From a virus, in the IMG/VR virus record IMGVR_UViG_3300047300_000522, positions 1 through 28,835 of that record: 28,835 nt of DNA; one strand, 5' to 3'. The notes under the pieces are model-generated. The model worked only from the letters and a program-made list of their open reading frames with translations, searched no databases and was not told the origin of the DNA. Below, one piece after another: positions 4,467-17,141 of the stretch. Position numbers and translations under genes: made by a program. The stretch's first letter is position 1, and each line of letters starts with the position of its first letter.

Positions 4467-5069
4467 TTATTTTTTAGAATTGATTAGTTGATATGCGCGT
4501 GAACGTGCATCCATTGCTCTAAATGGAGTTGATTCAACCGCGTTTTGTTTTTGTGCAACTGGAGTTGTCTTTTTTACCGACTCGGTAGCAGGTGCTTTAG
4601 ACATCTTCTCGATTGTTGCAGATAGCTCTTGCTTTTCAGCGTTCAACGCGTTGATTTTAGCCTCAAAGCCTTCAATCAATTTGTTGATAGTAGTTTCGAA
4701 CTCCTCGCGAGAAACGCCATCAAAAGAAGATTGCTCTTCCTTTTGAACTTCGATTTCTACGCTTGGTTCTTCCTCCATAGGCTTGTCTTTTACTTCCGTG
4801 ATTTTACCTTCTACTACAACCAATATCTTACCTTCGGCGGTTTCGTGTTCTCCGTCAGGTGCAGGGGTTGGGTTACCTTCCGCATCCATAACAAAGATTT
4901 CAGAACCTACTCCGAATTCAGCATCGGGAGAGTAAACTTCAGTACCATCAGCAAGCACAGCCATAGCCATTTGCTTTTGTTCAACCGCTTCCTCTACTGC
5001 AGAAAGGCTGATGCCAAATGACTTCAACTTTTCAGCGTACTTGGAAACGATATCGTTTACTTTGCTCAT
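4467..5069 (-). CDS. Capsid scaffolding protein
   Basis: The gene encodes 200 residues starting MSKVNDIVSKYAEKLKSF at the ATG at 5069-5067. The frame is open further upstream to about 5237 but without an ATG of coding quality, and it would cross a strong hairpin, so I reject the longer form. The N-terminal half carries ADGTEVYSPDAEFGVGSEIF and GNPTPAPDGEHETAEGK, a module I recognise from Bacteroidota phage scaffolds. The second half is acidic and helical with a coiled coil (about residues 120-160, including EEFETTINKLIEGFEAKI), and the tail is basic with RAMDARSRAYQLINSKK, which probably contacts the capsid. It would guide procapsid assembly and then be degraded by the protease encoded upstream. 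Confidence 0.75.
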   Translation of the reverse strand: MSKVNDIVSKYAEKLKSFGISLSAVEEAVEQKQMAMAVLADGTEVYSPDAEFGVGSEIFVMDAEGNPTPAPDGEHETAEGKILVVVEGKITEVKDKPMEEEPSVEIEVQKEEQSSFDGVSREEFETTINKLIEGFEAKINALNAEKQELSATIEKMSKAPATESVKKTTPVAQKQNAVESTPFRAMDARSRAYQLINSKK

Positions 5070-5839: not shown

Positions 5840-7408
5840 TTATTTTATTATTCTTGATTGGTCTTTTATTTTTTGCTCGGCTTCCTGGGCATTGCTTACG
5901 TTAGTTGCAAGTACATAAGTTTGAATCGGTTGTGATTTATTACTACCTTGATTAAGGAAAGATAAATCCACAGCAGGGGCAGGAGTAGCACCGCTACCAA
6001 CTCCGCCACCTCCTGCGCTTGGCTTGGGAACGTTACCGCCACCTCCATTAAATTGTTGCGCTCTAATTGATGCGATACGTGCAATACCAGCCGCAGCCGC
6101 TATACCTGCTTGGATAAATGGATAAGCAGGAAAGGCAGTTGTGATTGGTGAAGCGGAAGCCGTTGTAAATGCGTTTTGAGTACCCTCAATAGTTGAGATT
6201 GTGGCTTGTGCAATACCCAAAGTTTTAGCAATTTGGAATCCTTTTTTTGCATCTATTATACCACTATCAACCAACGCGCTATTTAAGTCCATAAGACCGC
6301 CAACTGTTTGTTCTGCTATTTTATAACGTGCCGCATATAAAGCCTCTTGTGCTTCTTGTTCTTTTTTAAGATTCGCTAAATACGCATCAACTTCTTTTTG
6401 GTTGGTTTTTAATACAATTCCAGAAGTAGTTGTTGCAGAAGTTACGCGAGTAGCATCACGCATTGTTATCTTTAAACTTTCTTCATCTCTAATCCTTGCG
6501 ACTTCCGTTTGATACCATTCTTCAAGCAATCTCAAAGCCTCCGCATTTCCGTGCGCTAACTTCTTTTTTTCTTCATATTGTAATTGCGCTTGGCGTACTA
6601 ACTTGTCATCATTGGCTAATGAATCTTGGTAGCGTTTCTCATTTTCCGCTTTAAGAAATTCCGTTAATGCCTTTTGGTCATCCTTTATTTTCTGCAACCT
6701 TTCCGCTTCTTTCTTCGCGGCTTCTTTGGCTAATCGTTCCTTTTCTGCTTCAACTTCTTTCTGCTTTTTGAGTGCTGCTTCTTGGTCTTTCTTTGCTTGT
6801 TCTTGGCGTTTCTTTTCATTCTCCGCTCTTTCTTCCGCTTTGGAATCAGTAAGTCCTATCCAGTCCATAAAGTCCACAAGACCTTGCGTTACTGAATCAA
6901 TGGTTTGTTTGATGAATCCAAACATCTTTCCAACCAATCCACCTGCTTTTGTCAGTTCTTCAAAGTTGGCAACAATCAAAGCAATGATACCACCGATTAA
7001 AAAGATAGGGTTAGTCATCAAAGCCTTACCCAAATCTAACATCGTCTTACCGAATCCCTTTGCAGCGTTGGAAAGGTCACCAAACTTGAAATCTTTAATT
7101 GCTGATGTAACCCCTTGCAATCCCGTTTGAGCCGCCCCAAAATCCAATGAAAGAATGGAACTACCAATTAACCCAAAAGAGTTATTCAATCGCTCCAATG
7201 GATCACCTGCCAATGTGTTGACCGACTTACCCAAGTCGCCCATCTTGTCGGTGAGTTCTCCGAGTTGTCTTTGTACCTTGTTAAATTCTGCAGTACCTTC
7301 TGGCAACCTTGCTAACTCCTCACGAAGTTTGCGCATTTGCGTACGCATCGACTCGACTCTCTCCGTGCCTTGAACGTCAACTTCTATAACCGTTTTTTGT
7401 GTTGCCAT
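5840..7408 (-). CDS. Tail tape measure protein
   Basis: The gene encodes 522 residues and sets tail length in a long-tailed phage. The N-terminal helical region contains VESMRTQMRKLREELARLPEG, a typical tape-measure start. A hydrophobic segment spans about residues 130-149 (ALMTNPIFLIGGIIALIVAN). A long charged coiled coil rich in K, E, A and Q covers about 195-310. Near 385-450 there is an Ala/Ile-rich hydrophobic stretch with FPAYPFIQAGIAAAAGIA, and the end is a Gly-rich linker (GGGGNVPKPSAGGGG) plus a short tail. At about 0.15 nm per residue, a rule of thumb, 522 residues predicts a tail of roughly 78 nm. The start ATG shares one base with the stop of the small membrane gene upstream. Confidence 0.85.
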   Translation of the reverse strand: MATQKTVIEVDVQGTERVESMRTQMRKLREELARLPEGTAEFNKVQRQLGELTDKMGDLGKSVNTLAGDPLERLNNSFGLIGSSILSLDFGAAQTGLQGVTSAIKDFKFGDLSNAAKGFGKTMLDLGKALMTNPIFLIGGIIALIVANFEELTKAGGLVGKMFGFIKQTIDSVTQGLVDFMDWIGLTDSKAEERAENEKKRQEQAKKDQEAALKKQKEVEAEKERLAKEAAKKEAERLQKIKDDQKALTEFLKAENEKRYQDSLANDDKLVRQAQLQYEEKKKLAHGNAEALRLLEEWYQTEVARIRDEESLKITMRDATRVTSATTTSGIVLKTNQKEVDAYLANLKKEQEAQEALYAARYKIAEQTVGGLMDLNSALVDSGIIDAKKGFQIAKTLGIAQATISTIEGTQNAFTTASASPITTAFPAYPFIQAGIAAAAGIARIASIRAQQFNGGGGNVPKPSAGGGGVGSGATPAPAVDLSFLNQGSNKSQPIQTYVLATNVSNAQEAEQKIKDQSRIIK

Positions 7409-16780: not shown

Positions 16781-16820
16781 ATATCAAATATAAGTAATAC
16801 GTATTTAATAAACTAATTCC

Positions 16821-16876
16821 AAAAGAAAAGAAAGAAAAAGAAAAAAGTTTAAAAAAGAAAAAGAAAGAAAAGAAAA
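16821..16876. repeat. 26-nt homopurine mirror repeat (triplex/H-DNA-forming candidate)
   Basis: The left arm (16821-16846) has A-runs of 4,4,3,5,6 separated by single G. The right arm (16851-16876) has 6,5,3,4,4 separated by single G. The right arm is the exact mirror (not the complement) of the left, around a 4-base spacer GTTT. Perfect homopurine mirror repeats of this length are the known substrate for intramolecular triplex DNA. Confidence 0.8.
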
Positions 16877-16982
16877 AGCTCCCCCACGAAAAACAAACAA
16901 TCACCCTCAAAGGGGTAGTTACCTGAACCAAGCGTTGATATATCGCAAGTTTGCCGTTTGCATCCCCCTTTGGCAATGGAGA

Positions 16983-16998
16983 ATAGATTTAAATCTAT
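16983..16998. repeat. 16-bp perfect palindrome
   Basis: ATAGATTTAAATCTAT reads the same on both strands. It may be a protein-binding site or a short hairpin beside the larger structure at 17018-17052. Confidence 0.6.
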
Positions 16999-17017
16999 CA
17001 TTGGCTATAAAAACAAA

Positions 17018-17052
17018 ATTCCGAAGGGGGTGTGGACTGCCCCCAACGGAAT
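17018..17052. other. Strong hairpin with internal loop
   Basis: ATTCCG (17018-17023) pairs with CGGAAT (17047-17052), then AA/AA forms an internal loop, then GGGGG (17026-17030) pairs with CCCCC (17040-17044) around a 9-base loop. No T-run follows on either strand, so it does not look like an intrinsic terminator. Confidence 0.7.
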
Positions 17053-17141
17053 ATGTATGAAAAACAAATATGTTTAATGCTAATGTCCACGAAGCAAAGA
17101 TGCAATAAAAAACAATGGTTGCCTCAAATTACAAAGAGTAG

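Follow-up and report, generated by a model that had tools for sequence, protein, structure and literature searches.

A phage purine mirror repeat as one end of a predicted small RNA gene whose U-rich strands may form a triple helix

Comparison among viral contigs suggests that a perfect purine mirror repeat in the DNA of an uncultured phage forms one end of a small RNA gene that had not been described before and is common to many uncultured phages. We hold it as nearly certain that the tract belongs to a real phage non-coding RNA family, and we think it probable, from the pattern of substitutions in its arms, that a triple helix is under selection there. The chances appear evenly balanced for the full reading, in which the selected RNA triple helix would have the DNA of its own gene as partner.

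The mirror repeat and its surroundings

The window (the whole stretch of DNA that was analysed) comprises the 28,835 bases of a linear virus record in IMG/VR. Its genes include PHROG matches to portal, head protease, endolysin, terminase, methyltransferase, sigma-factor-like and resolvase proteins. A perfect homopurine mirror repeat had been predicted at 16821-16876, and this is borne out: exact mirror arms of 26 nt lie on either side of a 4-nt spacer (AAAAGAAAAGAAAGAAAAAGAAAAAA-GTTT-AAAAAAGAAAAAGAAAGAAAAGAAAA). This is by far the longest mirror in a mirror-centre scan of the window, where it is listed at five spacer settings; no other centre with at least 11 matched bases and a spacer of 12 or less was found in the 28,835 bases. 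Its purine runs of 28 and 27 nt are the window's longest, the next homopurine or homopyrimidine run being 15 nt, and the tract has the composition, mirror symmetry and short spacer by which H-DNA is defined. The original prediction also held that such a length is not expected by chance. The computed probabilities are indeed low, 1/14,950 for an exact mirror if the left arm's four G's are placed at random and about 0.0017 if the run lengths are sampled from those found in the tract itself, but with values in this range the single copy in the window is suggestive only, and the conclusive evidence is comparative.

The tract sits in a gap (16781-17141) with minus-strand genes on both sides, 61-aa and 163-aa genes upstream and a 58-aa gene downstream; GC skew in the window broadly tracks gene strand. 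A palindrome and a strong hairpin had been noted beside it, and both exist. The palindrome (16983-16998) is absent from the same place in loci L033, L034, L041 and L047 and was dropped as a candidate partner element, while the hairpin (17008-17051) is retained in L033 and L034 with a compensating change (GGGGA../..UCCCC in L033, GGGGG../..CCCCC in the window). The syntenic site in related phages had been named as the place to look for further mirror symmetry. The 163-aa neighbour, used as query, gave 15 loci, 14 of which extend into the site while L027 stops at the gene; the 86-aa neighbour gene product, used in the same way, gave zero relatives. Read by eye, and with the sequence of L032 and L036 stopping about 420 nt in, two of the 14 (L033 and L034) have a different perfect mirror with arms of 20 nt and spacer GTCC (26 nt and AAAC in the window), the other 12 have no such tract, and none has an asymmetric one.

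Most of the 12 loci that lack the tract carry one of two other long non-coding modules in place of the mirror RNA, apparently structured, one set about 200-600 nt after the 163-aa gene (L026, L029-L032, L035 and L036) and the other at the same place (L028, L037, L038 and L040); neither has an Rfam match in the members scanned. The site looks like a slot for exchangeable RNAs. L039 has a reading frame and tRNA genes there; its 107-nt tRNA match at 7096-7202 exceeds the family consensus length and adjoins a second tRNA, and possibly has a long variable arm or an insert. At the start of the intergenic region in L028, L029, L035, L037, L040, L041 and L047 stands a leader reminiscent of a pseudoknot terminator, in which two stems interleave (for example GUUGAAGG../..CCUUCAAC and CCCCAUUUCAUU../..AAUGAUUUGGGG) before a U run; related leader forms stand ahead of all three kinds of RNA module.

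A family of predicted phage RNAs

A pattern made from the core of both arms matched at least 119 viral contigs, and inspection of these made a shared upstream motif visible. A regular expression places this 5' domain in 98 of the 124 loci with the arm pattern (L041-L164) and not in the other 26; the mirror-pattern scan also contains unrelated places. A mirror-free scan, with the 5' domain alone (promoter box, AAACTT and TTGGAWCAG), was chosen against bias. It gave at least 120 contigs and, after duplicates were merged and L177 was dropped for its short tail, 88 distinct tails; 75 of the 88 carry the mirror (score at least 17, often perfect) among the matches listed, and the pyrimidine strand is the RNA-sense strand in 75/75 of these. 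L165, whose arms enter a long T run, and L168, which has a U0-U1 mirror and no U2 (strand names are given below), were left out of the 75. The mirror is absent from 11 of the 88 listed tails; L166, L171, L185, L199, L212 and L215 lack it and look like chance matches. For the window's own lineage, the 5'-domain motif alone found 10 contigs, all 10 with the mirror. A direct-repeat control scan (93 contigs) was a poor control, since 52 of its contigs have the family 5' domain and 41 do not; the 52 fit both patterns because U2 ends in five T's. Two further observations concern modularity. The other five of the 11 tails that lack the mirror, L172, L174, L186, L193 and L224, have a 5'-domain-like stretch joined to other 3' ends (an ordinary hairpin, a G-rich stretch), so that the 5' domain seems modular, and in L168 (reverse strand, near 4667) a U0-G5-U1 mirror, in which a C has some eight T's to either side, suggests that the U0/U1 half is able to occur by itself.

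The order of the element is a TAnnTTTG box, a folded AAACUU-[stem]-UUGGAWCAG domain, and then U0, loop0, U1, loop1 and U2, with loop0 usually G-rich and loop1 mostly 4-6 nt. All of the following window features are on the minus strand. The promoter-like sequence TTGTTTTTTATTGCATCTTTG (17095-17115) has an imperfect -7 box; we take it, and TAnnTTTG generally, to be a promoter of the Bacteroidota type. The predicted RNA leader (17008-17091) is pseudoknot-like and includes a U run after the hairpin UUCCGUUGGGGG..CCCCCUUCGGAA (17008-17051), whose loop GUCCAC can pair with GUGGAC (in 17079-17091), a pairing drawn by reading and not by a fold program. A UCUCC..GGGGGA hairpin region (16954-16979; UCUCCAUUG/CAAUGGGAGA in L041) begins the folded 5' domain in the window's lineage. 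It is followed by the conserved core CAAACUU-[stem]-UUGGWUCAGGUA (16920-16953), a motif common to the family branches inspected, and by a small hairpin, ACCCC-UUUG-AGGGU (16903-16916), in place of which relatives have other hairpins. The first U-rich strand, U0 (UUUGUUUUUC, 16888-16897), mirrors the 5' part of U1 with G opposite C; after loop0 (GUGGGGGAGC, 16878-16887) come the central strand U1 (UUUUUCUUUUCUUUCUUUUUCUUUUUU, 16851-16877), putatively the Watson-Crick strand, loop1 (AAAC, 16847-16850), and U2 (UUUUUUCUUUUUCUUUCUUUUCUUUU, 16821-16846), the exact mirror of U1 and putatively the Hoogsteen strand. Beyond the mirror, a promoter-like box of the next gene (TATATTTG, 16785-16792) can be read in the sequence, and 18 of 73 other members among the matches listed have a same-strand TAnnTTTG within 100 nt after U2 (7.0 expected).

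Among the matches listed, TAnnTTTG occurs at -190 to -80 before U1 in 52 of 87 members, where 0.09 is expected per member; these 87 came from the mirror-pattern scan, whose pattern contains no promoter, and a further group has the box farther out, at about -201 to -260. The predicted start and the end of U2 are a median of 124 nt apart (range 120-152; 73 members among the matches listed), a distance within which the promoter gap is constrained by the search pattern, and the RNA would be about 125 nt long, or about 265 nt in the window's lineage owing to its extra leader. The stem of the 5' domain covaries: in one related branch 126/126 cells are paired, both sides are changed in all four variable pairs, and the covariation score is 0.779, against a mean of 0.202 when shuffled and 0.105 for the best slid version. 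In 31 of 177 loci (some of the 177 are unrelated matches) the RNA is opposed in direction by both of its nearest reading frames, and it is therefore not simply the leader of the next gene. A protein-coding origin of the tract was rejected, since the distance between the beginning of U1 and the end of U2 falls in each of the three frames (28, 26 and 21 of 75), with no frame kept.

The element is seen mainly in viral contigs. A pattern scan of a genome collection, which would miss the window's own lineage (TTGGTTCAG), returned 60 loci, two of them real by inspection: L256, from uncultured Bacteroidetes bacterium isolate AG-901-E05, and L249, from a metagenome bin titled Bdellovibrionota. The two are 90% identical over 684 nt; each has a tRNA-like sequence about 270 nt upstream of the RNA and a 12-13-bp stem (GGACUCUGUCC.. 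and its complement) that closes round the whole module. These chromosomal copies (L256:3320-3860; L249 reverse strand, last 360 nt) stand before a reading frame resembling a small DNA-binding protein and are possibly the remnant of an integrated element. Hosts are probably Bacteroidota, judging by the genome of L256 and by the promoter type. Frequent neighbours by PHROG are a NinG/Rap-type nuclease, a holin and an M15-type endolysin; BLAST of two neighbour proteins led to distant holins for one and to nothing for the other. A very basic 44-aa protein stands beside the RNA in differing gene orders (for example in L143, L079 and L083). It has 79 cluster members among the neighbours in 177 loci and no PHROG match, and is a candidate RNA-binding partner.

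The family appears to be new. Rfam had nothing above the gathering threshold in the element and only two tRNAs elsewhere, in L039; BLAST against named phages gave short chance-level matches for three members and no match for 6 kb of the window; and searches of open-licence PMC papers listed no comparable RNA.

Mirror symmetry and substitutions in the arms

The symmetry is kept while the sequence changes. Among the matches listed, the 75 members have 27 distinct inner-18 arm pairs, 17 of them exact, with a mean match of 17.41/18. When the pairing of U1 with U2 was permuted the mean fell to 12.64 and did not exceed 13.96 in 10,000 trials; as the 75 members were mirror-selected, this shows that U1 fits its own U2 better than it fits the family's other U2's, and the rate at which the mirror occurs is given by 75/88 of the listed tails. 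T-run lengths vary jointly in both arms, and close relatives alter both arms together (run order 6-3-5-5 in L105, 6-3-3-5 in L178 and L181). The third strand follows suit: the T runs on the two sides of loop0 have the same length (4/4, 5/5 or 6/6) in 51 of 54 distinct U0/U1 combinations from the other members among the matches listed (permuted mean 23.3, maximum 36), and the U0 base that faces the C of U1 is G in 27 and C in 27. Since we know of no copying mechanism that makes mirror images, we read the maintenance of the mirror as selection.

The substitutions that do occur point to the rules of a pyrimidine-motif triple helix (L208, whose arm is over-extended, was omitted from these counts, from the U0/U1 and loop-pair counts and from the purine-target counts below). 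Over 34 distinct arm pairs among the matches listed, adjacent C's were found at 0 of 1274 neighbours, with 30 expected. Mismatches between the arms fall on 7 of 104 sites where U1 has C and on 5 of 557 where it has T (P=0.0008, among the matches listed). Where a C site changes, the commonest pair is C in U1 facing G in U2 (7 cells); the other U1/U2 mismatch cells are A/G 2, G/C 3, A/A 3, G/G 2, T/G 2, T/C 2 and T/A 1. A scan that permitted A or G in each arm gave 8 contigs (7 distinct sequences) in two branches, and A is in U1 and G in U2 in 8/8. If U1 is the Watson-Crick strand this polarity corresponds to a G·T-A triplet, which Griffin and Dervan reportedly found in 1989 to be favoured in the pyrimidine motif. 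By the portion of PMC9380742 consulted, RNA·DNA-DNA pyrimidine triplexes lack stability if C·G-C triples are missing or adjacent to one another, and mismatches are poorly tolerated at Z·A-T, whereas Z·G-C accepts many bases. Some cases agree less well. The part consulted of PMC9473520 describes G at a T-A step as poorly bound in one antiparallel triplex structure; three contigs (L191, L206 and L234) have G in U1 and C in U2, which sits poorly with the assigned strand roles; and A/A pairs occur in L169, L173 and L214.

The original prediction of a triplex-forming DNA tract thus stands in part. Its triplex potential is strongly supported by a symmetry kept through sequence change in dozens of phages; the DNA-only view is incomplete, because the tract is one end of a predicted folded RNA gene and its pyrimidine strand is always the RNA strand.

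Possible partner strands and known triple-helix systems

The U strands are almost purely pyrimidine and the loops G-rich, and no A-rich tract matching the arms lies between the promoter and the end of U2 in the members inspected. A purine strand would therefore have to come from outside the RNA. The G pattern required of that partner differs from phage to phage while staying matched, and this, together with the lack of an A-rich segment, makes the template strand of the RNA's own gene, which fits by construction, the most economical partner. We picture a meander of three U-rich strands (U0-loop-U1-loop-U2) in which two pyrimidine strands would share one purine strand, U1 by Watson-Crick and U2 and/or U0 by Hoogsteen pairing, in U·A-U, C+·G-C and sometimes G·G-C triples. 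Such an RNA-DNA triple helix would let the RNA clamp the template (purine) strand of the DNA that encodes it, or remain anchored there, and the anchored RNA might, speculatively, prime, protect or mark phage DNA or block polymerase there.

Two other partners were tried and set aside. Purine targets elsewhere on the phage have longest matches little above those of a reversed control (mean 5.7 against 5.3 over 150 strands), so that nothing beyond control was found in the members' loci of at most about 15 kb each; two long matches, in L169 and L173, are the mirror itself, left unmasked. Antisense purine RNA would need promoters on the other strand, which show no excess (8/73 observed against 13.4 expected, among the matches listed). 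Several points count against the clamp itself: C+·G-C triples are favoured by low pH, U0 and U2 would be rivals for the same half of the purine strand, pairing with the template requires the RNA to displace DNA, for which transcription or supercoiling is necessary, and in L256 and L249 the RNA appears to run past U2 into the closing stem.

That same enclosing stem is what one would expect of a free folded molecule, and it suits a different reading, in which the U strands capture a purine-rich RNA in trans (a tail, or a host or phage transcript), protecting it or sequestering a target, much as ENE/MALAT1-type elements do with two mirrored U-rich strands round a short turn. We nevertheless think this unlikely. 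A plain poly(A) target needs no C's at fixed mirrored places, and the C's are kept, isolated and phage-specific; the loci offer no matching purine target beyond the control; and a fixed target would not favour the differences in both arms that separate the L105 type from L178 and L181. A purely DNA-based account, in which an intramolecular triplex in supercoiled phage DNA stalls polymerase or marks an origin and the RNA gene is incidental, would produce the same substitution rules, and the tract does answer to the classical description of H-DNA. Folding of DNA is indifferent to strand and distance, though, and has no use for U0; with the pyrimidine strand RNA-sense in every one of the 75 listed mirror members, downstream of a 5' domain and at a near-fixed distance from it, we rate this account as distinctly improbable.

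The RNA probably ends near U2, and a termination signal or transcription pause had been named among the tract's possible roles; loop0 could pair with loop1 to leave U2 as the U tail of an intrinsic terminator. Some members have loops that are complementary throughout (GUAGGC/GCCUAC in L170 and L175, GGAC/GUCC in L073), but overall complementarity is only 354 against a permuted 336.5 (P=0.04; 48 distinct loop pairs among the matches listed), and the loop0/loop1 helix is strong in few members only. A terminator scan of the window found one minus-strand site (0.5 expected), at 16902-16917, before U0. L256 and L249 appear to continue past U2, and a plain terminator or pause leaves the U1/U2 and U0/U1 mirror symmetry unexplained, so we think this role very improbable. 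We give hardly any credence to a two-stranded zipper of U-U and C-C mismatches or to a protein that reads UUUUC repeats. The C/G replacements at mirrored sites (27/54 for U0/U1, among the matches listed) can be read as Watson-Crick pairs, as a zipper would have it, yet T sites change in only 5/557 and none of these gives a mirrored A-U set, the C-C pairs kept in 97/104 would destabilise a duplex (both among the matches listed), and a repeat-reading protein has no need of mirror order.

We return to the anchored RNA, and offer as a tentative proposal, with less than even prospects, that widespread phages, probably of Bacteroidota, carry an RNA that locks onto its own gene through a sequence-matched RNA-DNA triple helix, compensatory mirror changes maintaining the match. 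If true, this would be a natural triplex system backed by covariation, possibly serving to prime, mark or shield phage DNA. The case for triple helices in living systems has mostly rested on single sequences and on experiments in vitro; here evolution can test the mirror rule, which holds in dozens of distinct phage sequences. Confirmation of the fold would provide a natural sequence-programmable RNA clamp for nucleic acids and open the question of a selected function for triplexes to direct test in a small phage gene. Should the triplex reading fail, there would still be a common phage RNA family, hitherto undescribed, whose mirror symmetry needs explaining.

Known systems resemble the element in part. 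ColE1-type RNA primers and T4 R-loop origins are cases of a plasmid or phage transcript that stays on its template, as the phage RNA is proposed to do; to our knowledge none uses mirror symmetry. H-DNA mirror repeats share the homopurine-homopyrimidine mirror, the short spacer and, in principle, the Y·R-Y triplex, whereas the phage mirror is the 3' part of a conserved predicted RNA gene, on a fixed strand and at a near-fixed distance, with a third mirrored strand, U0. ENE/MALAT1-type triple helices have two U-rich strands in mirror order that await a purine strand, and so does the phage RNA; it differs in having no A-rich segment (3' A tract), in arms of about 20 nt with isolated C's at phage-specific mirrored positions, and in its three U strands. 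The bacterial ITxF motifs, in the part consulted of PMC4666352, are likewise conserved triplex-capable motifs in prokaryotic DNA; these are G/C-rich and intrastrand, while the phage element has no purine segment in its own strand and is part of a predicted RNA gene. The RNA·DNA-DNA triplexes of human lncRNAs, as covered in the same portion of PMC9380742, follow U·A-T and C·G-C rules that fit the phage substitution pattern; those RNAs are thought to act on genomic DNA, whereas the phage arms covary and the phage RNA would bind its own gene.
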